From Deltaproteobacteria bacterium (GTDB taxonomy: Bacteria > Myxococcota > Myxococcia > SLRQ01): a DNA stretch of 42,632 nt. The DNA lies in contig JARGFU010000035.1 in NCBI GenBank assembly GCA_029210625.1, forward strand, positions 909-43,540, given 5' to 3'. Position numbers and translations under genes: made by a program. Shown piece after piece: positions 8,236 through 41,340 of the stretch. Numbering within the stretch: position 1 is the first letter of the stretch; the number at the start of each line of letters is the position of its first letter. A model generated the notes under the pieces. That model saw nothing but the letters and a program-made list of their open reading frames with translations, was not told where the DNA came from and did not search any database.

Positions 8236-10038
8236 CTACATCTCGAGGCTGTCCAGGGCGAGGTCCTCGACGTCTTCCAGCTCGTCGTCCTCGAACTCCT
8301 CGAGCTCGTCCATGCCGTCGTCGCCGCCGAGGTCCGCGACCTCGCCGAGGCCCTCGTCGTCGTCCACGACCGAGGCCGGAGCCTCGTCGAGGAGGGAGAG
8401 GCCGACCTCGAGGGCCTTGCGGATGCGCTCGCGGAGCTGCTCCTCGCCCTTGAGGTTCTGGTAGGCCTTCAGCAGCCGGTCCTCGTGCTTCCTGTTCTCG
8501 CTCTCGAGGGTCTGGACCTTCTCCTCCAGCTCCTCGATCTGAGCGGCCGCGGCCTGGGCCTCGGCCAGCTCGGACTCCAGCTCGCCGATGCGGCCGCGGG
8601 CGTCGGAGGCCTCGCTGGAGGCCTCGGCGACGCGCTGCCCCAGCTCGGCCACCTGGCCCTCGAGCGCAGCGGACTGGCTCCGGGCCTCCTCGAGGGAAGC
8701 CTCCAGCTCGCTCACCCGGCGGGCCGCGTCCTGGGCGGCCACGAGCTCGCCCTGGAGCTCCTCCATGCGGGCGCCCTGCTCGTCGGCCTTCTCCTCGAAG
8801 GTCTTGGCGTTGGCCTCGGCGGTCATGGCCCGCTCCTCGAGGTCCACGGCCTTCAGCTCGAGCTCGTTCTCCTTCTCCTGCCAGTCGAGGGCGGCCTTCT
8901 CCTTCTCGTTGAGCTCCTCCTTCAGGGAGAGGATCTCCTTGTCCTTGGCGGTCAGCTCGCCCTTGAGCCGGATGACGTCCTTGTTGGAGGCAGCGCCGCC
9001 GCCACTCTTGAAGGCCTCGAGCTCGTTGGTCTTCGCCCGCAGCTCGTCCTGCACGCTCGAGAGCTTGCCGGCGGCCTCGTCGCGCTCCTTGCGGAGCTTG
9101 GCGAGCTCCTCCTCGAGTCCAGCCACCTTGACCGCAGCGCCGGCGCCGCCGGTCTCGCGCGGGGGAGGGGCCTCCATCTCCAGCTCGGGGAGCCCGTCGA
9201 TCTCCTCTTCTTCCTCCTCCTCGAACTCGGACCCGAAGTCGGGGTCGAAGTCGGGCTCGGCCTCCGCCTCGGGCTCCAGGTCCTCGACCTCGTCGAGGAC
9301 GTCGAGGAGCTCGTCCTCGGCCCCGGCCTCGGCGGCGAAGTCCTCGAGCTCCTCGAGGCCGTCGGAGTCCAGATCGTCGCCCAGGTCCTCCAGGGACTCC
9401 AGAGCGTCGAGCTCGTCGTCCTCCTCGGCCTCTCCGAGCAGGTCGAGGGCCTCGTCCTCCTCGTCCTCCTCGTCCATCGCGCCCAGGGCGTCGATGGCCA
9501 GATCCGCGGACTCGGCATCGTCGGCCGAGGAGTCATCCCCCATCTCCAGGGCGTCCAGGGCGATGTCCTCGATGCCGTCTCCGCCGCCTCCCCCGTCGAC
9601 CTCCAGGCCCTCGAGGGCCTCGTCGAGGAGGTCGATCTCGTCGTCGAGGGTGGCGTCACCCTCGCCCAGGCCGATCAGCCCGTTGACCTTCTCGACCACC
9701 TCTTCCGCCTCGCAGGGCTTGATGACGTACTCCTCGGCCCTCGTCTTGAGCTTCTTGTGCTGCTCGAAGGTCTTGGGGGTCGCCTCGCTCGAGGTGATGA
9801 TCAGCGGGATGTCCTTGAGATCCGCGCTCTTCTTGAGCTTGTTGCAGACTGCGTAGCCGCTCATCTTCGGCAGCTCGACGCAGAGCACGATGGCATCGAA
9901 GCCGCCGTCGGAGGCGATGCCCGGCGCGGCCTTCCCGTCGGCGGTCTGCTCGACGGTCGCACCACGGGCTTCGAAAGCCGACTTCAGCTGACCGGCGAAC
10001 TCGTCGTCGGCCTCGATGAGGAGGATCTTCTTCGGCAT
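8236..10038 (-). CDS. FrzS-like pseudo-receiver protein with acidic linker and coiled coil
   Basis: A 600-aa protein in three parts. Residues 1-125 or so are a CheY-like receiver resembling the atypical receiver of the Myxococcus motility protein FrzS (KLKKSADLKDIPLII, FEQHKKLKTRAEEYVIKP). Residues 130-285 or so are extremely acidic Asp/Glu-Leu repeats. Residues 300-540 or so are a long heptad-rich coiled coil. An acidic C-terminus ends the protein. At the phosphorylation position the usual Asp is replaced by Cys53 (AIVLCVELPKMSG), while the conserved Lys (YVIKP) is retained, so phosphotransfer is unlikely. By analogy with FrzS and AglZ it may act as a polar or cytoskeletal scaffold. The ATG at 10038 follows GGAG; an in-frame GTG lies one codon earlier. 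Confidence 0.82.
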   Translation of the reverse strand: MPKKILLIEADDEFAGQLKSAFEARGATVEQTADGKAAPGIASDGGFDAIVLCVELPKMSGYAVCNKLKKSADLKDIPLIITSSEATPKTFEQHKKLKTRAEEYVIKPCEAEEVVEKVNGLIGLGEGDATLDDEIDLLDEALEGLEVDGGGGGDGIEDIALDALEMGDDSSADDAESADLAIDALGAMDEEDEEDEALDLLGEAEEDDELDALESLEDLGDDLDSDGLEELEDFAAEAGAEDELLDVLDEVEDLEPEAEAEPDFDPDFGSEFEEEEEEEIDGLPELEMEAPPPRETGGAGAAVKVAGLEEELAKLRKERDEAAGKLSSVQDELRAKTNELEAFKSGGGAASNKDVIRLKGELTAKDKEILSLKEELNEKEKAALDWQEKENELELKAVDLEERAMTAEANAKTFEEKADEQGARMEELQGELVAAQDAARRVSELEASLEEARSQSAALEGQVAELGQRVAEASSEASDARGRIGELESELAEAQAAAAQIEELEEKVQTLESENRKHEDRLLKAYQNLKGEEQLRERIRKALEVGLSLLDEAPASVVDDDEGLGEVADLGGDDGMDELEEFEDDELEDVEDLALDSLEM

Positions 10039-10194
10039 CACGACTCCGTTTCGCGGCGGGGGATCTGCCGCAAAAACACAGGAAATACGGGAGACTGGGG
10101 TCCGAAGCCGGAGTCTAACCGCGCACTCCGAGGCGGGTCAACGATTCGACCTCCCCCGCCATGGGGCCGGGAGAGGGTCCAAACCCGCGAAAGA

Positions 10195-27565: not shown

Positions 27566-28120
27566 TCAGGGATGTCGCGAGCTGATCTCGTCCCAGCGAT
27601 CGATCCGCTCGTCTTCTCCCATCAGGTCCACCAGCGCGGCTCTGACGAAGTCGCGGTCGAAGGCGGTGCCCTGCACTTCCACCATCCGCTCGACGTCGAG
27701 GAGGTCCTTGGGGCGAAAGAAGAGCAGCTTGAAGACCGCGAGGACCTCGGCCGAGTGGATCCAGGCCGGGCGCCCCAGGATCGTCGTACGGACCCGACGC
27801 GCGAGCGCCTCTTCGTAGAAGGGAATGCTCGGCACGAACACATCGACCCGGATGGGGCCGAGGTAGCCCACGAAGAGGCCCTCGCGGGTGGCCCGCTGGC
27901 GGCTCGCTGACCGGTCGAACTCGACGCCCGCGGACTCGACGAGGTCGAAGGCGCGGTCGAGGTCGTCGCCGGTCACCCAGAGGACGAGGTCCACGTCGGC
28001 GGTGGCGCGAGGCTCCGACCAGGCGGCGAGGGCCACCGCGCCGCCGATCGCGTAGTCGAGCTCGCCGGCCTCGAGGACCTCGAGCAGGCGGTCGACGACC
28101 GAGGAGACGGTCTCAGCCAT
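27566..28120 (-). CDS. MNT-type nucleotidyltransferase (possible toxin)
   Basis: A 184-aa nucleotidyltransferase-fold protein: Gly26-Gly27 in YAIGGAVALAAW, the metal pair Asp42-x-Asp44 (ADVDLVLWV), and a third acidic residue at Asp93 (IRVDVFVP). That is the minimal NTase core, related to AbiEii/MenA-like and other stand-alone NTase proteins. Such enzymes transfer nucleotides to tRNA or to protein and can act as toxins, but the target is not shown. Its start overlaps the end of the 74-aa gene by 8 nt, as in two-gene toxin-antitoxin or regulator modules. Confidence 0.82.
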   Translation of the reverse strand: MAETVSSVVDRLLEVLEAGELDYAIGGAVALAAWSEPRATADVDLVLWVTGDDLDRAFDLVESAGVEFDRSASRQRATREGLFVGYLGPIRVDVFVPSIPFYEEALARRVRTTILGRPAWIHSAEVLAVFKLLFFRPKDLLDVERMVEVQGTAFDRDFVRAALVDLMGEDERIDRWDEISSRHP

Positions 28121-28337
28121 CGCGGGCGCGCTGCATCAGCTCCCGCCACAGGGCCAGGGACGACTCGGTGCGAGGTGTCGGAGCTCGCAGCTTCGCTTCT
28201 CCGGGTCGGGCGGAGACGATCGAGTCCGTGAGGTCGCAGAGCTCGAAGAGCAGGGCCAGCCGCTCCTCGGGCGTCATCCGCACGAAGCGCTCCGTGTCGT
28301 CCTCGGGCGGTACGAAGGCCGGGAGGGGAGGAGGCAT
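28113..28337 (-). CDS. Small partner protein of the nucleotidyltransferase (possible antitoxin)
   Basis: A 74-aa protein placed directly upstream of, and overlapping, the nucleotidyltransferase gene. The N-terminus is Pro-rich, the middle helical (MTPEERLALLFELCDLTDSI) and the end basic-helical (SSLALWRELMQRAR). No known domain is recognised. Order and overlap fit the antitoxin or binding-partner position of NTase modules, but no functional motif proves it. The ATG has GGGGAGGAGG just upstream. Confidence 0.7.
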   Translation of the reverse strand: MPPPLPAFVPPEDDTERFVRMTPEERLALLFELCDLTDSIVSARPGEAKLRAPTPRTESSLALWRELMQRARDG

Positions 28338-28398: not shown

Positions 28399-28436
28399 CA
28401 TGAACTCCCGATCAGCTAGATGATCGGGAGTTCATG
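28399..28436. repeat. 16-bp perfect inverted repeat across the jetD stop codon
   Basis: CATGAACTCCCGATCA (28399-28414) is the exact reverse complement of 28421-28436, separated by 6 nt. The right arm encodes the last residues of JetD and the spacer contains its stop. A third block, GATCGGGA at 28391-28398, can pair with 28406-28413 instead, so two alternative hairpins are possible. There is no T run on either strand. Confidence 0.85.
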
Positions 28437-29807
28437 GGCCAGGACGGTCTCCTGCTCGATCCAGACACCCGTCTCGAGCAGAGCCTCGAGGAGGTCGCGG
28501 CCGTGGGGCTCCCGCCAGCCGGCGAGGGTTCGGAGGATCCGGGCCTCCGCGGCCTGCGAGAGGCGCAGGCCAGCTGCCCGGAAGCGCGCGTGGGTGGCGG
28601 CGTCCATCCAGAGGGGCTCGATCTTCAGGCCCGAGCGGTGGGCGAGGCTGCGCCAGATCTCGAGGCCCGCCCGATCGAGGTCTCCGGTGTGGCGCAGCTC
28701 GAGGTCGGGACGGTCCCGGGCCAGTGCTTTCAGGAGCAGGACCACCGCCCAGCCGGCCTGGCCTCCGGTGTAGACGAGGAGATCGTCGGCCTCCGGGCGG
28801 GCGGCGAGGGTGTGGAAGGCACTCTCGTTCTCGACCGTGAGGACGCGCCCGGCGCTCGTGCGCGCCCGCCTCGCGCGTCGAAGGACGGGGAGGGGGAGCT
28901 TGGCGGGTAGGCCCTCCCGGTGGAGGCGCGTGGGATCCTCGAGAGTCTCGGCGCCCACCTCGAGGGTGAGTGGGCCCTGGACCAGCACGTCGAGGCCGCC
29001 GAGGTTCCCCACGAAGTCGCAGTGCTCGAGGGTGAAGCGGCGGCGGATGGCCTGGCTGCCGGGTCGCTCGGCCTCGACGGTGGCGGCAAGGTCTGGATCG
29101 AGGGTGAGCAGCGTGTCACAGAGGCGGCCGTGGTCAGCCCCACCGGGCCGGAGGATCTTGGTGTGCCCACCGACCCAGCGGGAGAGATCGTCGACCCGGC
29201 CGGAGAGTGCAGGGTGTCGCGCGAGCAGCAGTCCGGTGACCAGGCGTTCGAGGGTCTGCCTTGCCACGGCGGGCCCCTCGGCCCGGTAGAGGGCTGCGAA
29301 GGGGCCGACGCCGCGGCCGGCCTCCTCCAGGGTGCGGGCGACCAGGCCCTCGACCTCCGGGTCTCGCCGAGCTTCCTGCCCGAGGGCTCGCAGTCGAGCG
29401 GAGGCGCGCTCGAGCCCATCCCGGGCCCCCTCCTCGAGGGCCGAGAGGAGCTCGCGGGTATTCGTCGCCGCCTCGGCCCGCCGATCCCGGGGCTCTCGGC
29501 CGGCGAGGGTGTCCAGGGTGGTCTCGAGGCAGAGGGGGACGGCGCCGAGCTCCTCGCAGTCCTCGACCAGCAGGCGAGCGAGGACGTCGAGACGGAGGGT
29601 GATCCCGTCCTTTCGCGGCGCCACCGCCGCGGCCGGCAGCACCTTCCCGAGCTCTTCCAGCTCGGCCTCCTTGCCCTGGAAGCCAAGCGTGCGGGGAAAG
29701 ACGCCATCTCGATCCCTCCGGTCGAGGACCCGCTCGACCAACCTGCGGAAGGTCGGATTCCGGGAGTGGGCCCGGCGGTACGCCGCGAGGACCGGATGCT
29801 CGCTCAT
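28416..29807 (-). CDS. jetD: Wadjet nuclease subunit JetD (Toprim)
   Basis: A 463-aa protein, last in the jetABCD operon. The C-terminal third is a Toprim domain of the DUF2220/DUF2399 kind: the catalytic Glu326 in LTVENESAF and Asp376-x-Asp378 in TGDLDRAGLEIW. The N-terminal part has helical and winged-helix-like segments, with VGGHTKILR and FVGNLGGLDVLV before the Toprim. In characterised Wadjet systems JetD binds the SMC complex and cuts circular DNA after loop extrusion. Its start overlaps the jetC stop as ATGA. Which JetD subtype it belongs to is unclear from reading. The start is supported by the overlap. Confidence 0.88.
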   Translation of the reverse strand: MSEHPVLAAYRRAHSRNPTFRRLVERVLDRRDRDGVFPRTLGFQGKEAELEELGKVLPAAAVAPRKDGITLRLDVLARLLVEDCEELGAVPLCLETTLDTLAGREPRDRRAEAATNTRELLSALEEGARDGLERASARLRALGQEARRDPEVEGLVARTLEEAGRGVGPFAALYRAEGPAVARQTLERLVTGLLLARHPALSGRVDDLSRWVGGHTKILRPGGADHGRLCDTLLTLDPDLAATVEAERPGSQAIRRRFTLEHCDFVGNLGGLDVLVQGPLTLEVGAETLEDPTRLHREGLPAKLPLPVLRRARRARTSAGRVLTVENESAFHTLAARPEADDLLVYTGGQAGWAVVLLLKALARDRPDLELRHTGDLDRAGLEIWRSLAHRSGLKIEPLWMDAATHARFRAAGLRLSQAAEARILRTLAGWREPHGRDLLEALLETGVWIEQETVLAHELPII

Positions 29808-32800
29808 GCCCCCGCCTCGGCCTCGACCCCGATGCGCAGCGTGTCGGCCTCGGGCAGGGCCCGCTCGAAGAGGGTCTCGGTCTTGCGGGCGAAGCGGTAG
29901 TCGTGGAGGAAGACGTCGCCCTCGGGGCTCTTCTCGACCAGCAGGGTGGTCGAGCGGTCGAGGGCCTCGCTGATCCCGTCGAGCTCGGGGGTCGCGACGA
30001 CCAGGGTGATGCCCGCCCGGGTACAGAAGCGCAGCAGCTCGTCCCGCCTTCCGGCGTCGATGCCATAGAAGGCCTCGTCGAGGAGCAGCAGGCGGACGCT
30101 GGCCTCGATCCCCTGGTAGAGCAGCAGGGAGAGGCAGAAGAGCAGGAGGTAGCTGGGCACGGCCTGCTCACCGCCAGAGCCCTGGCGCAGGCGCTCGCGG
30201 GAGAGCGCGACGCCGTCCTCGCCGACGCGGAAGAGCTCGAGCTCGAAGTCGAACCACTTCCGGTAGTCGAGGAGGGGAGGCAGGGCGTCGTCCTCCGAGG
30301 AGAGCTCGTCGAGGCGGGCAGCGAAGTAGTCCTTCAGCTCGGCGGTCTTGGCCGGAGAGATCGAGGAGGTCTCCTCGAGGAGCTTGTGCGGGCGCCGCAT
30401 CTCTGGCTTCAGATGCGCGCGAATACGGTAGCGGGTGCTGCCGAAGGAGAGATCGGCGACCAGCTGGTTGATGTCGGCAATGGTCCGCTCGAGCCCGAAG
30501 ACCTCGCCCCGCAGGGTGGAGACGAGGTCCTCGAGGACGATGCGCTCGAGGAGATCGTCGCGCCCCTCCCCGAGGGCAGCCTGCAGCTCGTCCACCTGCC
30601 CCTGTAGCTTCGAGCTCACCTCACCCAGCGTCGCGCCGGTGGTGTCGATCAGCTGCTCGCTACCCGCGTCGCGAGAGAAGGCGTACTTCTGCCAGAGGAG
30701 AGGGTGGCGCAGGCCGTCGCTGCCGGAGAGGCGCTCCTCGAGGGTCGCGAGCTGCCGCTGCGCCTGCTCGATCCGGCCCGGGAGGTTGGCGACCTTGAGC
30801 TGGCCGCCCTTCTTGTGGACGAAGACGTAGGTGTCGAGGTCGGCGCGGTGTTCGGCGGCGACCCTCGCGAGCAGCTCGCTCCTCGCCCGGGCCAGCTCCT
30901 CCCGGGCCTGATCCATCGCGACCGCCGCCCGCGCTGCCCGATCGGCGGCGGTCTGCTCCTGCCCTTCCGCCAGACCCAGGGACCGATTCGTGGCATCTAC
31001 CTCACCCTGGAGCGCTCGCCGGTGCTCCTCGAGCGCTTGCAGCCGCTCACCGAGCACGTCGAGCCCCTCCTCCTGGATGGCCCGCTCGAGGGTCGCGAGG
31101 ACCTCATCGGTGGCCGCGAGGCGAGCCCGATGTCCCTCCGATCGCCGGGTGGTGGCCGAGACCCTCTCTTCCAGCTCGGCCGCCCGGACCCGCGCGTGCT
31201 CGCGCTCCTGGGCGGCGAGGGCCAGGGCCTGGAGCGAGAGGCCCTCGAGGGCGTCTGCGGCCTTCCCGAGGGTCTCCTCGATCGCGTCCTCTCCCGCCGC
31301 CGCCGTGCTGGCGGCGTCGGCTCGGTCTTCGTTGGCCTCGGCCTCGGCTTCGAGATGATCGATCGCCTCGGCCAGCGCCCGGGCCCGGGCGGCGGTGCCC
31401 AGCCAACGGGGCGGTCCCGGGAGCAGGCGCTCGTCGGCTCGCGCGTGGCGGAGGTGCCCCTCCCCGGTGAGGAAGGAGCGCTCGGGCTCCTCCGCGACCA
31501 CGGCATCGGCGTCTTCCGGGGCGATCGGGGCGAGGTGGTAGGCGAGGAAGGACGTCGCCACGGCCTCCGCGCCACCGGCGGCCTCGATGTGCAACTCGTC
31601 GACGAGGCTGGTACCGCCCGGCGCGGCTCGAGGTGTCTTCCCGGTCCGGGGCGCCCGCGCGAGGGGGAGACCCGGCCACCGGGCGAGGAGGAGCCCGAGA
31701 GCCGCGTCGTGGTGCTCGGGTGCGACCACGAGCGCCGAGAGGAGTCGTGGTCCGAGGGCCCGCTCGAGGTAGCCCGTGCGCTCGAGGGAGACTCCCGGCC
31801 CAGGTTCGAGGCAACGGTAGAGGGGGGAGGCCGCGATCCCCTCGGCCGCGAGCGCGGCCAGGGCGCCCTCGAGATCGACGCCCGCGAGGGGCGGCGGTGG
31901 CTCGCCCCGGGCGCGGAGAGCCTCGGCCTCCGCTCGCGCCTGGCGGGCATGGGCACGGGCGTCTCGCTCGGTCTCCCGTAGCCCCGCCGCGCGCGCCGCC
32001 GCCTCGGACGCCCCCCGGAGCAGCGCATGAAGGACCTTCTGCTGGAGGCGCTCTAGCTCCTCGGGGAGCGGGCGGTCCGGTAGACGGTGCAATCCTCGCA
32101 GCTGATCCTGGAGTCGCCCCAGGGCGTCCAACCCGACCGGCCCGAGGTGGGGAGCGCTGGAGGCCCCGACCCCTTCGAGGATGCGCGTGCCCGCGCCCGC
32201 GAGCTCGGCCACCCGGGTGGTGGTGCGCTCTGCCTCCCCCGCCACCTGGCCCAGGACCCGGGAGGCGGTCTCCTGTTCCCGGATCGCCTCTCCCAGGGTG
32301 ACGGCCTCGCGCTCTCGCGCGGCCGAGAGCTCCCTGCGCCGCTCGAGCAAGGCGATCCCTTCGCTCGCCCGGAGGCGCCCGCTCTCGGACTCCGCCGCCT
32401 CCAGGTCGATTCGCAAGGCGTGCAGCCTCTCCTCAAGCTCGCCGCGTGCGGCCCTCCTTACCTCGATGGCGGCGCGCGCCTCGGTCTCCTCGTGTTCGGC
32501 GCGCGCGGCCTCGTGGTGCGAACCCAGGTAGGCGTAGCGGCAAAGGACCTCCTTCTGGCCCTCGATCTCGTCGATCAGTCCGAGCAGGGTTCGTAGCTGC
32601 CCGAGCTCCTGGTCGAGGGCCGAGAGGTCGGTGCGGGTGCGCTCCATCGCCTCGAGGGCTCGGCGGATCTCGTGGAAGGCCCCCTCGTCCGGATCGGGCA
32701 GGAGGGAGGCGAAGAGGCCGCCGAAGTTCTCGGTGGCGGCGACCAGGTCGCGGTAGGCCTTGCCGGCCGCGAGGAAGTGGCTGACCTGCTCGAAGCTCGC

Positions 32801-33349
32801 CCGGCTGCCGAAGAGGCGCTCGCCCACCCGGGTGCGGTAGCGGCCGAGGTCCATCAGGGAGCCCGCCGGCAGATGCTCGGCGAGCTCGGCCCGGTCCCGC
32901 ACCCGCCGGCCCTCCGCGGTCTGCTCGACCAGCTCGATCTCGGAGAGGGGGAGGGGGGCGATGATGCCCCAGCGGTCCGGCCGCGAGTCCGGGCCCGCCG
33001 CGAAGGCGCCCAGCCCGATGGTCAGGACGCTCTTGCGCTGCGCGTCGGAGAGCTCGAGCAGGCAGTAGCCCACCGCGCCCTCGGGGCGGCGGTGCCCCCG
33101 CTCGAGGTCGTGCCGGAGCAGGATGCCGGCGAGATCCCGTCCCTCGCCGCGCCGACCCCGGACCCGCGCCGCCGCGTTCAGCTCGACACCCAGGGCCCCG
33201 GTCAGGGCCAGATGCACGGCATCGAGCACCGTGGTCTTGCCGGCGCCATTGTCACCCACGAGGAAGAGGCTGCCGTCGAGGGCGATGGTCTCGTCGGTGA
33301 AGTTGTGCCAGTTGACCATCCTCACCGCGCGTAGCTCGAGTCCACTCAT
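29804..33349 (-). CDS. jetC: Wadjet SMC-like ATPase JetC
   Basis: An 1181-aa MukB/SMC-like motor. The head begins with VRMVNWHNFTDETI and Walker A GDNGAGKT at residues 32-39. Long heptad-rich coiled coils run from about 260 to 480 and from about 650 to 960. Residues 500-640 or so form a hinge-like globular segment. The C-terminal head has the signature GSGGEQ at 1057-1062 and Walker B LLLLDEAF with Asp1091-Glu1092. It dimerises and, with JetA and JetB, extrudes DNA loops by ATP hydrolysis. Both ends overlap neighbours by 4 nt (ATGA). The NWHNF-type head start differs from what I know of the TIGR02680-type JetC proteins. Confidence 0.93.
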   Translation of the reverse strand: MSGLELRAVRMVNWHNFTDETIALDGSLFLVGDNGAGKTTVLDAVHLALTGALGVELNAAARVRGRRGEGRDLAGILLRHDLERGHRRPEGAVGYCLLELSDAQRKSVLTIGLGAFAAGPDSRPDRWGIIAPLPLSEIELVEQTAEGRRVRDRAELAEHLPAGSLMDLGRYRTRVGERLFGSRASFEQVSHFLAAGKAYRDLVAATENFGGLFASLLPDPDEGAFHEIRRALEAMERTRTDLSALDQELGQLRTLLGLIDEIEGQKEVLCRYAYLGSHHEAARAEHEETEARAAIEVRRAARGELEERLHALRIDLEAAESESGRLRASEGIALLERRRELSAAREREAVTLGEAIREQETASRVLGQVAGEAERTTTRVAELAGAGTRILEGVGASSAPHLGPVGLDALGRLQDQLRGLHRLPDRPLPEELERLQQKVLHALLRGASEAAARAAGLRETERDARAHARQARAEAEALRARGEPPPPLAGVDLEGALAALAAEGIAASPLYRCLEPGPGVSLERTGYLERALGPRLLSALVVAPEHHDAALGLLLARWPGLPLARAPRTGKTPRAAPGGTSLVDELHIEAAGGAEAVATSFLAYHLAPIAPEDADAVVAEEPERSFLTGEGHLRHARADERLLPGPPRWLGTAARARALAEAIDHLEAEAEANEDRADAASTAAAGEDAIEETLGKAADALEGLSLQALALAAQEREHARVRAAELEERVSATTRRSEGHRARLAATDEVLATLERAIQEEGLDVLGERLQALEEHRRALQGEVDATNRSLGLAEGQEQTAADRAARAAVAMDQAREELARARSELLARVAAEHRADLDTYVFVHKKGGQLKVANLPGRIEQAQRQLATLEERLSGSDGLRHPLLWQKYAFSRDAGSEQLIDTTGATLGEVSSKLQGQVDELQAALGEGRDDLLERIVLEDLVSTLRGEVFGLERTIADINQLVADLSFGSTRYRIRAHLKPEMRRPHKLLEETSSISPAKTAELKDYFAARLDELSSEDDALPPLLDYRKWFDFELELFRVGEDGVALSRERLRQGSGGEQAVPSYLLLFCLSLLLYQGIEASVRLLLLDEAFYGIDAGRRDELLRFCTRAGITLVVATPELDGISEALDRSTTLLVEKSPEGDVFLHDYRFARKTETLFERALPEADTLRIGVEAEAGA

Positions 33350-34221
33350 GCCTCACCTCCCTCGTCGCCACCGGGCTCGTCGACGACGCGCTGCCACGCC
33401 ACGGGTCCGGAAGCCTCGTCGTCGCCCGGCTCGAGCAGCCGCGCCGTCGTGCCCCGGTGAGGTGTCGAGGCGCCTTCTCCATAGCCCGCGGGGACGCTCT
33501 CCATGGGCGTCTCGAACGCATCGAGGGATTCGGGGGCCTCGGCGGTCTCCTCCGGCTCCGGCAGGCCGTGCGCGCGCCGGATGATCGGCTCGGCCAGGCG
33601 CGAGGGCTCGTAGCAGCGAATACCCGGCAGGAAGGCCCAGAGCTCCTGGAGCTCGCCGCCTTCGTCGTCGCCCCGCTCGATCAGCTCGAGGAAGCGGTGC
33701 CGCTCCAGCTCGCGGAAGAGGGTCGCGGTGGCCGCGAGGATCTCCCGGTCGGTGGGGGCCGCCTCGCCGAGCACCTTTCGGTAGCGGGCGACCGCGTGGG
33801 TGAGGAAGTCGGAGAGGAGGAAGCGCAGATCCTCGTCGTGCTCGGGGTGGACGTTCTGGGCCGCGAGGGAGAGCTCGTGGAACTCGAGCAGCAGCATGAA
33901 GCCGACGGCCTGATCCCGGCGGGTCAGATCGAAGAGGCTGCGGTGCCTGGGGGTGAGCGCAGGGTTGGTGGGAGCGCCAGCGCGGAAGAGGCGGGCGACC
34001 TTGCGATCGACGAAGAGGTCCCAGCCGAAGTGCTCCTCGAAGAAGTGCTGGAATGCGGCCCGGTTGCGTCGCAGGTAGTCGAAGAGGTCCCGGTCGTCCT
34101 GCCGGTAGAAGAAGGTGGACTCGGTGAGGCAGTTGAGGATCCGGCGGCTGCGGACCCGGGAGAGTCGGTCGAGGGGAGTGGACTCCCCCGTGGGGGTCGT
34201 GTCGGTCTGGATATCGTTCAT
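33346..34221 (-). CDS. jetB: Wadjet MukE-like subunit JetB
   Basis: A 291-aa protein between jetA and jetC, with 4-nt overlaps on both sides. The N-terminal 200 or so residues are helical with winged-helix character (ILNCLTESTFFYRQDDRDLF, HFGWDLFVDRKVARLF, DREILAATATLFRELERHRF), consistent with a KITE/MukE-like subunit that binds the kleisin JetA. The last 70 residues are Pro/Glu-rich and look disordered; this tail is not part of the usual core. Identification rests mostly on gene order and fold character, since JetB proteins diverge strongly. Confidence 0.82.
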   Translation of the reverse strand: MNDIQTDTTPTGESTPLDRLSRVRSRRILNCLTESTFFYRQDDRDLFDYLRRNRAAFQHFFEEHFGWDLFVDRKVARLFRAGAPTNPALTPRHRSLFDLTRRDQAVGFMLLLEFHELSLAAQNVHPEHDEDLRFLLSDFLTHAVARYRKVLGEAAPTDREILAATATLFRELERHRFLELIERGDDEGGELQELWAFLPGIRCYEPSRLAEPIIRRAHGLPEPEETAEAPESLDAFETPMESVPAGYGEGASTPHRGTTARLLEPGDDEASGPVAWQRVVDEPGGDEGGEA

Positions 34222-35795
34222 CGTCTCTTCCTCCGGAGCAGGGCGTCGGGCAGGTCGAGCTCGAAGCGCTCGGTCGTCAGCAGCGCCCGCCCCTCGGCAG
34301 GTTCGAGGGAGAAGGTGAGGTGAGGCCGCGCCTTGCCGCCGCGTAGGCGATAGGCCAGCAGGCCACCGACCACCGCCCGGGCGTCGGCGAGCTCGGTGAG
34401 CTGCCCCGCCGAGAGCAGGGCCTCCGGGCGGCCCGCGAACACTCTCAGCTCGAGGAGCTCGCAGAGGCTCGCCAGGCGGCCGAGCTCGAGCTCCCGGGAG
34501 GCGCCCGGCCGGCCCTGCTTCTCCTCCAGCAGGCCGCCCCGGAAGGCGGGCCGGCTGCTCTCGTGGCGCCGGGCGGGGCGAGGCGGGGGCGCCCGGGAGG
34601 TCGGGGTGCCCCCGCGGCCGTCGGTCCGCAGGAGGACCGGGGCGACGAGCTCCTCGACGAAGCGCCAGGCGAGCGCGTCGGCCTCGGGGCCTGCCAGCCT
34701 GAGCAGCTCGTCGGTCCGGGCGCGCAGGGTCTCGATGCGCAGGTTCCGGAGGCGGACGGCCTCGACGTGTCGCTGGAGGCGGCGGATGACCTCGCGGGTG
34801 CGGCGGTTGATCCGCAGACAGAGGGCCTCGAGCCCGGCGCCCGGCGTGAAGAAGCGGCGCAGCCCCTCGATCAGCTCGGTCGGATGGCGAAGACCGACGA
34901 TCGGACCGCCGCCCGGTTGCAGGGCCTCGAGCCGCTGCTGCTGCAAGGAAGAGGCACGTGTCCAGAGCGCTTCGAAACGCTCGCTGGCGAGCGTGGCCAG
35001 GGCCATGCGAACGGCCCGCCCCCGCTCGTGTAGCACCGCCAGGTAGCGCTCGACGTAGCGCTCCAGGTGCCCGGCGAGTGCCTGCAGTTCGCTCACCTTG
35101 AAGGGCTCGGTGAGGAAGCGTGCGAGCGCGTCGCCCACACCCACCAGCTCCTCGGCGATGCGCTCGGTGGCCAGGTCGGCTTCGTGGAGCAGGTGGAGCG
35201 CCCGCTCGATCTCCTGGTCGTCAAGGGGTTCTTCCCCACGGTCTCCCGCGCGCTTCAGGCAGCGAGTGGCCTCCTTGAGCTGCCCGTGGATGTCGGCCAA
35301 GAGGTTGGCGCCGAGCTCGCGCCCCCCCTGACCGTCCTCGCGGCTCTGGCTCTCCAGGAAGGAGAGGAGGCCCGAGACCCGCGGGTCGATCCGCAAGAGC
35401 AGCTTCTCCCGGCCCCGGTCGCCGAGGCGCCGGATCCGGGTGGGCTCGATCCGCTCGGTGACGGCGCCCCAGGCCCGCAGCTGCTCGAGGTCCTGCCGGA
35501 AGAGGACGGCGTCGTAGGGCAGGCCGAGCCGCCGCTCGACCTCGGGGGCGACCTCGGCGAGGAGGGCGTCGTGGGCCACCTCCATCTCGTGGTCGAGGCG
35601 CCGCCGATGCAGGGTCCAGAGCAGGATGAGGTAGACTCCCCGCCGAGCCTCCACCAGGAAGCGAAAGCGCTGCCCGTCGCCGAGGGCGCGGGAGACCCGG
35701 TCGAGCGCTTCCGGGTTGTTGCTGCCGTCGTCCTTCATTTGAGTCTGGCCGGGCGGTGCGCCCGGAGGATCTCTCATAGCATCGGGGTCCGACAT
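34218..35795 (-). CDS. jetA: Wadjet kleisin subunit JetA (MukF-like)
   Basis: A 525-aa protein, first in the operon. An N-terminal winged-helix region (about residues 40-130; LEQLRAWGAVTERIEPTRIR) is followed by helical bundles and coiled coil (LHLLHEADLATERIAEELVG and beyond). A linker at about 415-440 leads to a C-terminal winged helix that ends in a beta-rich LTFSLEPAEGRALLTTERF. This matches a MukF-like kleisin that bridges JetC heads and holds JetB. The ATG at 35795 gives the longest product. Two later in-frame ATGs (35777 and one near the start of KDDGSN) are possible and none has a good Shine-Dalgarno sequence. Its promoter must lie in the 97 bp shared with the divergent ATPase gene. 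Confidence 0.85.
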   Translation of the reverse strand: MSDPDAMRDPPGAPPGQTQMKDDGSNNPEALDRVSRALGDGQRFRFLVEARRGVYLILLWTLHRRRLDHEMEVAHDALLAEVAPEVERRLGLPYDAVLFRQDLEQLRAWGAVTERIEPTRIRRLGDRGREKLLLRIDPRVSGLLSFLESQSREDGQGGRELGANLLADIHGQLKEATRCLKRAGDRGEEPLDDQEIERALHLLHEADLATERIAEELVGVGDALARFLTEPFKVSELQALAGHLERYVERYLAVLHERGRAVRMALATLASERFEALWTRASSLQQQRLEALQPGGGPIVGLRHPTELIEGLRRFFTPGAGLEALCLRINRRTREVIRRLQRHVEAVRLRNLRIETLRARTDELLRLAGPEADALAWRFVEELVAPVLLRTDGRGGTPTSRAPPPRPARRHESSRPAFRGGLLEEKQGRPGASRELELGRLASLCELLELRVFAGRPEALLSAGQLTELADARAVVGGLLAYRLRGGKARPHLTFSLEPAEGRALLTTERFELDLPDALLRRKRR

Positions 35796-35867
35796 GGGGA
35801 TCCGGCGGTACTCTCCACCCGGCCGTCCAGAAGGCAGTCTTCAGGGCGTCCAAAGGGTATTGTATTG

Positions 35868-35884
35868 GCTGTCCATCTGGCAGC
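35868..35884. promoter_or_regulatory. Imperfect palindrome between jetA and the ATPase gene (operator candidate)
   Basis: GCTG-T-CCA-TC-TGG-CAGC (35868-35884) pairs over 7 bp with one extra T. It ends 8 nt before the ATPase ATG, within the intergenic region that should hold both divergent promoters. GTCCAGAAGGCAGTCTTCAG nearby (35825-35844) resembles GTCCATCTGGCAGCTTCAG (35871-35889) as an imperfect direct repeat, consistent with two binding sites for one regulator. No regulator gene is adjacent. Confidence 0.35.
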
Positions 35885-35892
35885 TTCAGGCC

Positions 35893-37167
35893 ATGGCGTA
35901 TTCATCCAGGATCGTGGACGGGGAGCTCGACGTCCTCCTGGCGGGCCTGCCGGCGATCTCGATGGAGGGCCCCAAGGCCGTGGGGAAGACCGAGACCGCG
36001 CTGCGTCGCGCGGGCACGGTCCACCGGCTCGACGACCCCGAGCAGCTGCAGATCGCGCAGGCCGCCCCCGACCGGCTGGTGGGAGGTGAGCCGCCGGTGC
36101 TCATCGACGAGTGGCAGCGGCTGCCCACCTCCTGGGATCTGGTCCGGCGGGCCGTCGATGCGGGCAGCGGACCGGCGAGCTTCCTGCTCACGGGTTCGAT
36201 GGCGCCGCGGGAGGCCCCGGTCCACTCGGGGGCCGGTCGCATCGTCACGGTCCGGATGCGGCCGATGTCGTTGGCCGAGCGGTGGCCCGAGACGCCGGCC
36301 GTCAGCCTGGCGAGGCTCCTGAAGGGCCGGGCGCGACCTCCGGTGGAGGGAGCGACCGAGCGCACCCTTGCCGACTACGCGGACGAGATCGTGCGCTCGG
36401 GCTTCCCCGCGATCCGTCAGCTCTCGGGCCGCCTGCTGCGCGCCCAGCTCGATGGTTATCTCGATCGGATCGTCGAGCGCGACTTCGCCGAGTCGGGGCA
36501 CCGGGTCCGGGAGCGGGGGGGCCTGCGCCGGTGGCTCACCGCCTATGCCGCGGCGAGCTCGACCACGGCCACCTTCGAGACGATCCGGGATGCGGCCTCG
36601 GCCGGCACCGGCGACCGGCCCGCGAAGACCACGACGCTGCCCTTCCGGGCGACCCTCGAGCACCTCTGGATGATCGAGGAGGTCCCGGCCTGGACGCCGG
36701 TCCGCAGCCGCCTGCGCCGGCTCGCCTCGTCGCCGGTGCACCAGCTGGCCGACCCGGCCCTGGCCGCTCGCCTCCTGGGGGTCGACGTCGACGCGCTCAT
36801 CGAGGGGGCGAGCGCCGGACCGGCGATGCCGCGGGATGGCACCCTGCTCGGGGCGCTCTTCGAATCGCTGGTCACCCTCTCGGTGCGGGTCTACGCCCAG
36901 GCCGCCAAGGCCCGGGTGTATCACCTCCGCACCCGCGCCGGCGAGCGGGAGGTCGATCTGATCGTCGAGCGGGGCGACGGCCGGGTGCTGGCCCTCGAGG
37001 TGAAGCTGGCGGCGACGGTCCGCGACGAGGACCTCAGGCATCTGCACTGGCTCGCCGATCGCATCGGCGGCGAGCTCCTCGATGCCGTGGTCATCACGAC
37101 CGGCCGAGAGGCCTACCGGCGAGAGGACGGAATTGCCGTCGTGCCGGCGGCGTTGCTGGGGCCTTGA
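35893..37167 (+). CDS. AAA (AAA_14) ATPase with DUF4143 C-terminal domain
   Basis: A 424-aa protein. Walker A is GPKAVGKT at residues 26-33 and Walker B VLIDEWQ at about 69-75, with the sensor LLTGS after it. The second half is DUF4143, with a restriction-nuclease-like pattern REVDLIVERGDGRVLALEVK (Asp...Glu-x-Lys). Proteins of this family are abundant in bacteria, often plasmid- or island-borne, and their function is mostly unknown. Upstream sequence is open in the same frame, but conserved sequence starts at the ATG at 35893, close to where the ATPase core begins. Divergent from jetA, so it may share regulation with Wadjet; this is inference. Confidence 0.88.
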   Translation: MAYSSRIVDGELDVLLAGLPAISMEGPKAVGKTETALRRAGTVHRLDDPEQLQIAQAAPDRLVGGEPPVLIDEWQRLPTSWDLVRRAVDAGSGPASFLLTGSMAPREAPVHSGAGRIVTVRMRPMSLAERWPETPAVSLARLLKGRARPPVEGATERTLADYADEIVRSGFPAIRQLSGRLLRAQLDGYLDRIVERDFAESGHRVRERGGLRRWLTAYAAASSTTATFETIRDAASAGTGDRPAKTTTLPFRATLEHLWMIEEVPAWTPVRSRLRRLASSPVHQLADPALAARLLGVDVDALIEGASAGPAMPRDGTLLGALFESLVTLSVRVYAQAAKARVYHLRTRAGEREVDLIVERGDGRVLALEVKLAATVRDEDLRHLHWLADRIGGELLDAVVITTGREAYRREDGIAVVPAALLGP

Positions 37168-37195
37168 GCCCGGCCGCGGCTGGCCTCAGCGCCAA

Positions 37196-38113
37196 TCAGC
37201 CCAGGTACCGGTGGTCATTGTGCCACCGGAGGTACTCAGGGTTGGGCCGCAGGTCCGGGCGGTCAGGCAGCCGTAGCAGCTCGCCATGCTTGGCGTAGTA
37301 GTCGCGTCCGTTCTCGAACTCCTCGCGGATCTTGCCGCTGACCTCGATGTGGTGGTCCGGGGTGAAGGTCAGGTAGCCGGAGTCGTAGAGGGCGTGGAGG
37401 TCCCGGCGCAGGAGCAGGCCGTTGTCAGCGGCATGGGGACCTCCCGAGGCGAATTCCTTGATGTGGGCCGCTTCCAGGGCGGGCAGGGTGCGCTCTCCGG
37501 TGACCGCGCAGCGGCGCCCGTAAGTGTCGGTGACCAGGATGCGAAAGCTCCGCTGACCCAGCCTCTGTCGCACCAGTCGCTCTGGACCCCATCCGGGGTG
37601 CTGGTCGGGTGCCTCCGTCGCCAGCAAGGCGCCGTCGCGCCTCGCCAGCTGCAGCTGTTCATGGAGTCGAGCGCCTTCGCCGACCGTGAGGTTGTAGGTC
37701 TTCCCCTGGACCGTGTTCCGCGGCCAGTCCGCAGGGGCTGGGATCCACTGGTTCTCTGGCAGGAAGAAGGTCTGGGTCAGCAGGATGCAGCCGATATCCG
37801 GGTTCGGGCCCGGATCATCACGCCTGTACTTCGCAATCCGTGCGTGCATCTCAGCGCGGGTCACGGCGCCGTTGGCCTCGCCGAAGGCCTCCCAGGCCAG
37901 GTAGAGCGGCACGATCGAGAAATGCGCAAAGTGTCCGCCACCCACGATGTAGTGGTGGGGCGCATGCAGCTTGAAGAGGAATAGCCCTCCAGGCTCGACT
38001 GCCTTGAAGGTCGTCTTGCCCCCCGGCTTCCAGAAGTTCGCCTCATCGAGGTCTGGCTTGGCCGCGAGGTGGCGATACCAGTCGCCGTCGGTGATGCCGA
38101 TGAAGGCCTTCAT
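37196..38113 (-). CDS. HNH endonuclease with possible PUA/EVE-like N-terminal domain
   Basis: A 305-aa protein. The HNH nuclease lies at about residues 200-250: Cys202 (RCAVTGE), His217 (EAAHIKEF), Asn231 (DNGLLLRRDLHALYD) and His240, the HNH_2 pattern. The N-terminal 130 or so residues (FWKPGGKTTFKAVEPGG, FLFKL, YIVGGG) resemble a small beta-barrel of the PUA/EVE/SRA sort that reads modified bases; this part is a shape guess. Such fusions would act as modification-dependent restriction enzymes. The ATG at 38113 begins MKAFIGITD and is preferred over an open frame upstream. It is divergent from the DUF3427 helicase, 71 bp away. Confidence 0.8.
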   Translation of the reverse strand: MKAFIGITDGDWYRHLAAKPDLDEANFWKPGGKTTFKAVEPGGLFLFKLHAPHHYIVGGGHFAHFSIVPLYLAWEAFGEANGAVTRAEMHARIAKYRRDDPGPNPDIGCILLTQTFFLPENQWIPAPADWPRNTVQGKTYNLTVGEGARLHEQLQLARRDGALLATEAPDQHPGWGPERLVRQRLGQRSFRILVTDTYGRRCAVTGERTLPALEAAHIKEFASGGPHAADNGLLLRRDLHALYDSGYLTFTPDHHIEVSGKIREEFENGRDYYAKHGELLRLPDRPDLRPNPEYLRWHNDHRYLG

Positions 38114-38184
38114 GGTTCCGGAGCGACCATACCACCACAAAGCCCTGGTCCACCGCGGAGGAATCGCCTAGAGCTCGAGGCACG

Positions 38185-41100
38185 ATGCCTACGAAACTCA
38201 TCCCGGGACTCTACGAAGATCTGATCACGACCGACCTGGCTTCCAAGGTCACAGAGGCTCGAGAGCAGGGCTGGCTAATCGAGGACGCTCGATGCGAGCC
38301 CGAGTTGAGGGCCGAGCTGCTCGCGCAGCACATCTACCATCACGCGCTTCGGGTTCTGCGCGACAAGAAGGGGAAGTCTGCCGACGTACTTCGAGATCAG
38401 GTGAAGCTGACGAATCGTCTGCTCGCGGTTCTCGAGAAGCACAAGCGTCCAGTCGTCACATCGGGGGATCGGGTCGAAAAAGTACCAGAGATCCTGCGAG
38501 AGGCTCGACCGAAGCCAAAGGAGGCTCTCGCAACACTCGGTTGCACTCCAAGGCCCAGCCTATCGCTCCGTAGCAGCGGCCTGATGGTGAACGGCCACCA
38601 CGACTACCAGATCGGACACGAGGTAGCGCGAGAGGCCGAGAGTGCCGATCGGATCGACTTGCTCTGCGCATTTGTGAGGTTCGCGGGCCTCCGCTTGGTG
38701 CTGCCCCAGCTGCGTGCTTTCGTGAAGCGGGGAGGTGACCTGAGGGTCATCACGAGCGTCTATACCGGCTCCACCGAGAAGAAAGCGCTAGACGCGCTCC
38801 ATGAGCTCGGCGCCAAGGTCAAAGTCTCGTACGAGACCGCCCAGACTCGTCTCCATGCGAAAGCGTGGCTCTTCGAACGGCATACGGGCCTTTCGACCGC
38901 GTACATCGGTTCATCAAACCTGACGCATTCTGCGCTAGTCGATGGTCTGGAGTGGAACGTGCGGCTCACGGCCGCCGACAACGAGCCACTCCTCGAGCGT
39001 TTCCGAGCCACGTTTGACCAGTACTGGGAGTCAGAAGAGTTTGCCCCCTACGCGCCGGATAGGGATGGGGAGCGGCTGGCGTCTGCACTTGAGAAAGAGA
39101 GGGCACCCAGGGGGGACGGCTGGGCTCCATTCGATCTCCTGGCGTCATTGTCGATCGACGTCGCGCCGAAGCCCCACCAGGCCGAGGTTCTCGAAGCCCT
39201 CCAGGCCGAACGTTCGCGAGGCCATCATCGGAATCTCGTCGTGGCAGCCACTGGCACCGGCAAGACCTGGATCGCGGCATTCGACTACGCCCGACTTCGG
39301 GAACAAGGCTACGAGAAGCTCCTCTTCGTGGCTCACCGAGAGGAGATCCTGCGGCAAAGCCAGCAGGTCTTCCGGGTCGTCCTTGCGGATGGCCAGTTCG
39401 GCGGCCAGCTGGTCGGAGGACAGCGACCGGCAGATGGTCGCCACGTGTTTGCCTCGATTCAGTCGTTGAAGAACCAGCTAGAGGATCTGCGGGCTGATGA
39501 GTTTGACGTGGTCATCGTGGACGAGTTCCATCACGCGGCGGCGAAGACCTACAGGGAGCTGCTGGAGCACTTGGAACCGAGCGTTCTACTGGGACTGACC
39601 GCTACTCCCGAACGCATGGACGGGAAGTCGATCCTCGAGTGGTTCGACAACCGCATCGCGAGCGAGTCGAGGCTGTGGAATGCCCTCGATGAGGGCCTCC
39701 TATGCCCGTTCCACTACTTCGGAGTTGCAGATGGCACGGACTTGTCGGGCGTCACCTTCAGCCAGGGGCGCTATAGCCAGGGCGAGCTAGAGGACATCTA
39801 CACCGGGGACGACATCCGCCTGAAACGCATCCTTCAAGCAGTCGATCGATACACTGCAAACACAGGCCAGATGCGTGCCCTTGGATTCTGCGTCGGGGTT
39901 GAGAACGCGAAGTTCATGGCTGAGCGTTTCAGGAAGGCGGGGCTGCCTTCAGTCGCACTTCACGGTGGCTCTTCCAAACAAGAGAGAGTGAGCGCAATCC
40001 AGAAGCTTCGCTCCGGCGCGCTGCGGTGCATTTTCACTGTCGATCTCTTCAACGAAGGCGTCGACATCCCCGAGGTCGATACGGTGTTGATGTTGAGACC
40101 CACCGAAAGCGCCACGGTCTTCCTCCAGCAGCTCGGCCGGGGCCTTCGGTGGGCCCGCAACAAGAGCGTCCTGACCGTGCTCGATTTCGTCGGTCACGCG
40201 CACAGCGACTTTCGCTTCGACCTGCGCTTCCGTGCCTTGGTGGGTGGAACCCGACGAGAAGTGGCCAAGGCTGTGGAGGCCGGGTTTCCACTGCTGCCGC
40301 CAGGGTGTGCGATTCAGCTCGAGAGGGAGGCGCAGGATGCGATTCTGGAGAACCTGAGATCCGCAATACAGAACCTGCGGGCGCAACTCGTCGACGATTT
40401 GAAGGCACTGGGGCCCGATTCTGGTCTGCGAGAGTTCCTGCGGCGATCCGAGAAGGATCTCCAAGATGTGTACACTCGACCTTCATCCAATCACTGCTTC
40501 ACCGACCTTCACAGAAGAGCCGGTCACCTTCCGAGGGAGAAGTCCGACCAAGAAAAGGCCCTAGAGCGATACGCCGGTCGTGCACTCCACATCGACGATC
40601 CCGTTCGCTTGAATGCCTGGCTGTCATGGTTGGCGAACAAGAAGCCGCTGTCAGTGAAGCCCTTGAACACGCGTCAGGGCCGTCTCTTGGCGATGCTCTA
40701 CGCGACTCTCGGCCACCGAAAGCGCCCGATCGTAGAGATGGTCGCCACATTTCAGGAGCTCTGGAGCACCCCACAGCTCAAGCGTGAGTTCGTAGATCTG
40801 TTCGAGATTCTTGCTGACGCATCGCGGGTAGACGCCCAACCCCTGGACCCGAAGGGCCGAGTGCCCCTGTGCAGCCACGCCAGCTACTCCCTCTACGAGG
40901 CCATTGCCGCCTATGGGCTGGTTGGGCCGGAGTCAGGCGCCCTGCGAGAAACCCGAGAAGGGATTGTCTGGGCCGACGAGGACAAGACTGGGCTGCTGTT
41001 CATCACGTTGGACAAGTCTGAATCGGACTACTCGCCGACGACGCGGTATGCCGACTACCCGATCTCGCCAGAGTTGTTCCACTGGGAAACCCAGAACTCC

Positions 41101-41340
41101 ACGACGCCGTCTTCAAATGTCGGAAAGCGGTACATCGAGCACCGGTATTGCGGCACCCGCATTGTCCTCTTCGTCCGTCAGCGGAAGAAGGACGACCGCG
41201 GAGAGACCATGCCCTACACCTGCCTCGGATACGCCAACTACGTGACCCATGAGTCGGAACGGCCCATGCGCATCACCTGGAAACTAGAGAGGCCGATGCC
41301 GGCGTGGCTCTACCAGGCGGGCAAGTTGGCGGCGGCATAG
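38185..41340 (+). CDS. PLD-nuclease / superfamily 2 helicase / DUF3427 protein
   Basis: A 1051-aa multidomain protein. After an N-terminal helical domain (LIPGLYEDLITTDL), a phospholipase-D-type nuclease has one HxK motif, His224-x-Lys226 (LHAKAWLFE), and GSSN downstream. The SF2 helicase has motif I ATGTGKT ending at Thr361, motif II DEFHH at 446-450, motif III LTATPERMDG, and motif VI QQLGRGLRWAR. The C-terminus is DUF3427: SPELFHWETQNSTTPSS, RIVLFVRQRKKD, and a PMRITWKLERPMPAW ending. A single HxK implies dimeric PLD action. DNA translocation plus cleavage fits anti-invader defence. Base composition is clearly lower in G+C than in the Wadjet operon, so a separate acquisition is likely. Confidence 0.93.
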   Translation: MPTKLIPGLYEDLITTDLASKVTEAREQGWLIEDARCEPELRAELLAQHIYHHALRVLRDKKGKSADVLRDQVKLTNRLLAVLEKHKRPVVTSGDRVEKVPEILREARPKPKEALATLGCTPRPSLSLRSSGLMVNGHHDYQIGHEVAREAESADRIDLLCAFVRFAGLRLVLPQLRAFVKRGGDLRVITSVYTGSTEKKALDALHELGAKVKVSYETAQTRLHAKAWLFERHTGLSTAYIGSSNLTHSALVDGLEWNVRLTAADNEPLLERFRATFDQYWESEEFAPYAPDRDGERLASALEKERAPRGDGWAPFDLLASLSIDVAPKPHQAEVLEALQAERSRGHHRNLVVAATGTGKTWIAAFDYARLREQGYEKLLFVAHREEILRQSQQVFRVVLADGQFGGQLVGGQRPADGRHVFASIQSLKNQLEDLRADEFDVVIVDEFHHAAAKTYRELLEHLEPSVLLGLTATPERMDGKSILEWFDNRIASESRLWNALDEGLLCPFHYFGVADGTDLSGVTFSQGRYSQGELEDIYTGDDIRLKRILQAVDRYTANTGQMRALGFCVGVENAKFMAERFRKAGLPSVALHGGSSKQERVSAIQKLRSGALRCIFTVDLFNEGVDIPEVDTVLMLRPTESATVFLQQLGRGLRWARNKSVLTVLDFVGHAHSDFRFDLRFRALVGGTRREVAKAVEAGFPLLPPGCAIQLEREAQDAILENLRSAIQNLRAQLVDDLKALGPDSGLREFLRRSEKDLQDVYTRPSSNHCFTDLHRRAGHLPREKSDQEKALERYAGRALHIDDPVRLNAWLSWLANKKPLSVKPLNTRQGRLLAMLYATLGHRKRPIVEMVATFQELWSTPQLKREFVDLFEILADASRVDAQPLDPKGRVPLCSHASYSLYEAIAAYGLVGPESGALRETREGIVWADEDKTGLLFITLDKSESDYSPTTRYADYPISPELFHWETQNSTTPSSNVGKRYIEHRYCGTRIVLFVRQRKKDDRGETMPYTCLGYANYVTHESERPMRITWKLERPMPAWLYQAGKLAAA

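Follow-up and report, generated by a model that had tools for sequence, protein, structure and literature searches.

A complete Wadjet (jetABCD) operon that probably belongs to a lineage apart from the described types

Type I and type II Wadjet systems differ in the length of the SMC arms, in the hinge and in the number of KITE chains. A stretch of 42,632 nucleotides from contig JARGFU010000035.1 of a Deltaproteobacteria bacterium (assembly GCA_029210625.1), here called the window, carries four genes that a first-pass annotation had described as a complete Wadjet operon that was hard to type and might be a divergent subtype. The locus raises the question of which Wadjet type, if any, it belongs to. 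We consider it likely that the operon is a Wadjet plasmid-restriction system of a lineage apart from the three described types, and most probably a relative of type II with short arms and an unfused JetB.

Genes, motifs and surroundings of the operon

The operon occupies positions 28416-35795 of the window on the minus strand, in the order jetA-jetB-jetC-jetD, and an ATGA overlap is found at each stop/start junction. The jetA gene (34218..35795, minus strand, 525 aa) encodes a kleisin-like subunit with a DUF2397 domain, which is type II-like. The jetB gene (33346..34221, minus strand, 291 aa) encodes a single KITE-like unit with an acidic, Pro/Glu-rich tail at its C-terminus (residues 217-291 of the translation; 33349..33573, minus strand), which lies outside the best profile matches. 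The jetC gene (29804..33349, minus strand, 1181 aa) encodes an SMC/MukB-like ATPase with short arms that matches the PADLOC models JetC1 (4.7e-47) and JetC2 (7.7e-42). The jetD gene (28416..29807, minus strand, 463 aa) encodes a Toprim nuclease with the Pfam domains JetD_C and DUF2399, and overlaps jetC by 4 bases. Genes for kleisin, KITE, SMC and Toprim subunits thus lie in one operon, as in Wadjet systems generally, and the coordinates and junctions agree with the complete four-gene operon first described.

Alignment of JetC with 30 reference SMC proteins locates, all on the minus strand, the Walker A motif GDNGAGKTT (residues 32-40, 33230..33256), the ABC signature GSGGE (residues 1057-1061, 30167..30181) and the Walker B motif LLLLDEAF with D1091 and E1092 (30068..30091). 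The hinge region was placed by profile comparison at about residues 500-655 (31385..31852, minus strand). In JetD the catalytic residues Glu326 (28830..28832, minus strand) and Asp376 and Asp378 of a GDLD motif (28674..28682, minus strand) fall in columns that are invariant in all six aligned JetD proteins. Aligned with references of types I and II, JetC and JetD show intact ATPase and Toprim motifs, exactly as first noted.

Third-position GC is 87.5-90.3% in jetABCD, as for most other genes in the window, so the frames are coding and not chance open reading frames in GC-rich DNA. Base composition is even over jetA, jetB, jetC and jetD. A search with JetC showed that the operon is single-copy in its own genome. 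An open reading frame at 8236-10041 was considered as a second system and rejected, its weak JetC2 match being due to a coiled coil in a response regulator.

The neighbours of the operon fit a defence island. Three of them, at 35794-41340 and divergent from jetA, encode a PDC-S01 candidate defence ATPase (DUF4143), which adjoins jetA, then an HNH nuclease akin to enzymes that restrict phosphorothioate DNA, and last a type IV restriction helicase that has both a PLD and a DUF3427 domain. The GC content of the helicase gene (60.9%, third-position GC 74%) is under that of its surroundings, which suggests a recent arrival. Downstream of jetD, at 27566-28337 on the minus strand, a 74-aa open reading frame (about 28113-28337) overlaps the start of a 184-aa gene. 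The product of the latter is nucleotidyltransferase-like by eye and has no significant family match, and the pair looks like a two-gene unit.

A family search of about 195 same-phylum genomes supplied reference loci for types I, II and III, as did plasmids and one Clostridiales MAG; the MukBEF reference was from E. coli K-12. No close relative of jetABCD was found in the ~195 same-phylum genomes, in 72,556 plasmids or in 50,697 phages. Searches of the plasmids and phages by tblastn with the window proteins gave at most one weak match each, and the viral scans gave no relative, or only short matches to the N-terminal ATPase (P-loop). A scan of GTDB contigs with JetC, by near-exact peptide patterns that are blind to all but close relatives, found two Clostridiales loci only, one an intact type II operon and the other a type II-like JetC. 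The rarity of this lineage is shown only for the collections searched.

Several of the reference loci are of interest in their own right. A large, conjugative Cupriavidus plasmid (NZ_CP016951.1) carries two Wadjets, one of type I and one of type II, separated by about 25 kb (L093 and L101, at 314-327 kb and 344-357 kb). Four loci (L078, L079, L096 and L097) from Streptomyces plasmids and two same-phylum genomes form a distinct long-armed type II group (DUF2397/2398/2399); the plasmid copy L096 adjoins SbcCD genes and the plasmid copy L097 adjoins a Ku gene. In L075 (genome G095) two TGA codons break up the jetC of a type II operon that is ordinary in other respects; the gene is either a pseudogene or the result of sequence errors. 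In related genomes type I jetABC genes occur in which jetD was not detected (L039, L041, L042, L044-L047, L049-L051 and L055). In six of these loci a nearby gene encodes enolase, an AI-2E transporter, an M16 peptidase or a methyltransferase. The jetD-less loci probably encode chromosomal condensins, MksBEF, to which defence profiles give the Wadjet label.

Profile typing and subunit architecture

All four proteins pass the curated cut-offs of Pfam families. JetA matches DUF2397 (62.7 bits, cut-off 28.5), JetB matches DUF2398 (40 bits, cut-off 26.9; DUF4194 was under its cut-off), JetC matches AAA_29 and SbcC_Walker_B, and JetD matches JetD_C (57 bits, cut-off 22) and DUF2399 (54 bits, cut-off 23). 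The identification of JetD as a Toprim protein, which was checked against these profiles, therefore stands.

The type-specific models give weaker scores. The NCBIfam models TIGR02677, TIGR02678 and TIGR02680 score 40, 31 and 76 bits against cut-offs of 166, 125 and 463, and NCBIfam gives no match for JetD (TIGR02679 is the type II JetD family). With the PADLOC models JetA scores 31 bits on JetA2, JetB 35 on JetB2 and 25 on JetB1, JetC 159 on JetC1 and 141 on JetC2, and JetD 95 on JetD1 and 47 on JetD2. The best JetD match, to JetD1, is confined to residues 274-457, and no PADLOC match was seen to JetA1, JetA3 or JetB3.

With the same models the type I and type II reference proteins reach 95-2276 bits for the type to which they belong, mostly more than 160. 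The JetA, JetB, JetC and JetD of a type II control (L073) score 485, 365, 1218 and 396 bits, and those of a control from the second type II group (L096) 1012, 784, 2276 and 168 bits. The JetA, JetB and JetD of a type I control (L043) score 677, 284 and 458 bits. In these three controls the opposite type scores little or nothing. For the DUF5716 type I group, JetA, JetB and JetC of L037 score 202, 95 and 890 bits and JetD of L036 scores 165 bits. The proteins in the window pass the Pfam cut-offs and score weakly on the models of two types at once, so we regard the operon as a Wadjet that is claimed by no type. The description of the locus as hard to type is borne out, since the four proteins do not fall within one known type in PADLOC, Pfam or NCBIfam.

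In profile comparisons JetA resembles type II JetA (97% over 284 columns, E 1e-10) and does not resemble type I JetA, either of the DUF5716 group (0.2%) or of the DUF3375 group (0.7%).

Type II JetB proteins are about 380-460 aa long. A comparison of their N-terminal half with their C-terminal half gives a modest match that is in register (P 3.7e-4, 36% probability, 134 colinear columns), and type II JetB looks like two KITE-like units in one chain. The JetB in the window matches the N-terminal half of type II JetB (96.5%, E 7e-10), and its residues 24-216 match the JetB of the DUF5716 type I group (93%, E 3e-7). We therefore read it as one unit that is followed by the acidic Pro/Glu tail. The tail is probably disordered, and a shorter acidic tail is also found in a type I JetB (L084). 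The extra tail seen in the first-pass annotation is real; the more telling feature of JetB is the presence of one KITE unit instead of two.

The stoichiometry of type II has been given as (JetC2JetB1JetA1)2 and that of type I as (JetC2JetB2JetA1)2 (PMC12647877). The solved type II system of Neobacillus vireti (nvJET, PDB 9qe0 and 9qe1) has six JetC and three JetB chains over the two entries, which agrees with this stoichiometry. By analogy we infer that each JetC dimer of the system in the window would carry two JetB chains, as those of type I do, and not one as in type II. The JetC hinge and JetB were modelled with AlphaFold, but mean pLDDT values of 48 and 37 were too low for the models to be used.

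The arms of JetC are short. The distances from Walker A to the hinge and from the hinge to the signature are 499 and 408 residues, compared with 448-529 and 369-401 in type I and 572-629 and 496-520 in type II. The hinge matches the type II hinge profile from end to end (P 1.3e-4, 54% probability, 136 columns) and the type I hinge profiles more weakly (P 0.01 and 0.32). A reading of the hinge as type I-like, made by eye from its length and the JetC N-terminus, was dropped when the profile comparison favoured type II.

By profile, the JetD Toprim region is most similar to the DUF5716 type I group (98.7%, 2.5e-16), ahead of type II (95.8%, 7e-9).

The operon is like type II (JetABCD-II; TIGR02677/78/80/79) in gene order, in its DUF2397 JetA, in the DUF2398-type start of JetB, in its nearest JetC hinge and head sequence and in the DUF2399 match of JetD. 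It differs from type II in a JetC that is about 200 residues shorter, in a JetB of one unit as opposed to about two, in NCBIfam scores far under the cut-offs, and in JetC heads and a JetD Toprim domain that lie outside the type II clades. With the DUF5716 type I group (JetA1/JetB1/JetC1/JetD1; MksBEFG-like) it shares arm length, a single JetB unit and the JetD Toprim profile, but JetA is unrelated at profile level, the hinge match is insignificant and the JetC heads are not nested there. The DUF3375 type I group is alike in general architecture and short arms, but gives no convincing profile match for JetA, JetB, JetD or the hinge (P 0.01 or worse).

Type III shares a Toprim JetD (70% probability, P 4e-5), but its JetC is long-armed (1469-1566 aa), JetA is unmatched and the JetC heads are far apart. 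MukBEF and Lamassu have an SMC-type ATPase in common with the operon; MukBEF, unlike jetABCD, is without JetD. Lamassu was rejected as an identification, the match of LmuB to JetC being weak and neither LmuA nor LmuC being seen beside jetC. We found no paper that names a type IV Wadjet in the literature covered, which is largely without subscription journals.

Phylogenetic placement and alternative explanations

A tree of the JetC heads was built from 347 head-domain columns of 31 proteins, including distant outgroups. In this tree the 13 type II rows together form the sister group of the JetC in the window (bootstrap 89, SH-aLRT 98), and this JetC lies outside the type II clade (100/100). The AU test does not reject joining it to type I (p 0.137), and joining it to the DUF5716 type I group is marginal (0.044). 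The placement beside type II is weakened because the 89/98 support depends on the distant outgroups, and by the AU value for grouping with type I.

A reduced tree was made with the five most distant rows removed, and hence with no outgroup; the program warns of long branches. The JetC in the window falls on the branch that separates the type II clade (100/100) from the type I clade (100/99.8). Its placement with the DUF5716 type I group (AU p 0.011) or with the other type I group (0.014) is rejected. As it has no outgroup, this tree puts JetC in neither group and does not indicate its sister. The highest identity of the JetC heads to any reference is 28%. From these sequence comparisons the JetC heads appear to branch outside the type I and type II clades, and closest to type II (89/98).

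The JetD tree, from 184 columns of the Toprim region, also keeps the protein out of the type II clade (99/99). AU p values are 0.24-0.29 whether JetD is grouped with type I, grouped with type II or set between the two, and 0.235 when it is put with the DUF5716 group, so that none of these is rejected. As JetD is more type I-like in the profiles while its tree is undecided, the histories of the four genes may differ. With JetC falling outside both clades, and JetD outside that of type II, the trees lend support to the divergent subtype first suggested.

One alternative is that the operon is a mosaic, in which recombination joined a type II-like jetA to genes from a DUF5716-group type I operon, namely jetD and perhaps portions of jetB and jetC. 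The match of JetA to type II only, the better match of JetD to the DUF5716 group, the match of JetB to both types and a JetC N-terminus that resembles the DUF5716 group by eye are what a mosaic might give. Yet both trees put the proteins outside type II and nested in no type I subgroup, grouping of JetC with the DUF5716 group is marginal or rejected in the two head trees (AU p 0.044 and 0.011), though that of JetD is not rejected (0.235), and composition is even across the four genes. We consider a mosaic origin possible, but rather unlikely.

It is also conceivable that the operon is an ordinary, fast-evolving type II system in which the JetC arms were shortened and the second unit of JetB was lost secondarily. 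JetA and the hinge are type II-like, and the JetC heads fall on the type II side when outgroups are present. The heads nevertheless lie outside the whole type II clade in both trees, JetD lies outside its type II clade, and neither the arms nor the number of JetB units is odd when set against type I, within whose range they fall. This makes a fast-evolving type II system distinctly improbable.

A deep offshoot of type I that acquired a DUF2397 kleisin would account for the arm length, the JetB unit number and the JetD resemblance, and the AU test of the full JetC set allows grouping with type I. We think it very unlikely, as the hinge as well as JetA is closer to type II than to type I, and the type I clade is recovered without the JetC in the window (100/99.8) once the distant rows are removed.

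The notion that the operon is a chromosomal condensin of the MksBEF kind and not a defence system can hardly be held, for although JetA, JetB and JetC are condensin-like and many relatives have jetABC operons beside housekeeping genes with jetD undetected, jetD is here joined to jetC by the 4-base overlap with its catalytic residues intact, and the operon, sporadic in its occurrence, has defence genes for neighbours.

The most likely of these explanations is a lineage of its own that branches off near the base of type II.

Proposed working and evolutionary meaning

Type I and type II Wadjets both cleave circular DNA (PMC12647877; reviewed in PMC10586767), and the jetABCD of Clostridium cellulovorans acts on incoming plasmids in its native host (PMC12287153). 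Homology and intact motifs suggest that plasmid restriction is the most likely function of the operon in the window. By analogy with the Wadjets studied, two JetC dimers, held together by JetA (the kleisin) and JetB (the KITE units), would extrude small circular DNA. Once the whole circle had been reeled in, extrusion would stall and the JetD Toprim dimer would cut. Small plasmids would be lost and the chromosome spared. Loop extrusion, circle sensing and cleavage are carried over in this scheme from those systems.

We suggest tentatively that the operon might represent a fourth Wadjet lineage at a pre-type II stage, with a type II-like kleisin and hinge, short arms and a single unfused KITE JetB. 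One member of the lineage is known, so the lineage cannot be dated and its short arms are not demonstrably ancestral.

Whether, in the origin of type II, the arms lengthened before or after the hinge channel was lost has been left open (PMC12647877). If the operon does represent a pre-type II stage, remodelling of the hinge would have preceded arm lengthening and KITE fusion, which bears on these two orders. Type-specific profile detection can leave Wadjets like this one untyped. Because its kleisin and hinge are type II-like while its arms are short and its JetB has one unit, the operon is a natural test case for the linked features of type II, and it could help to show how type II originated.
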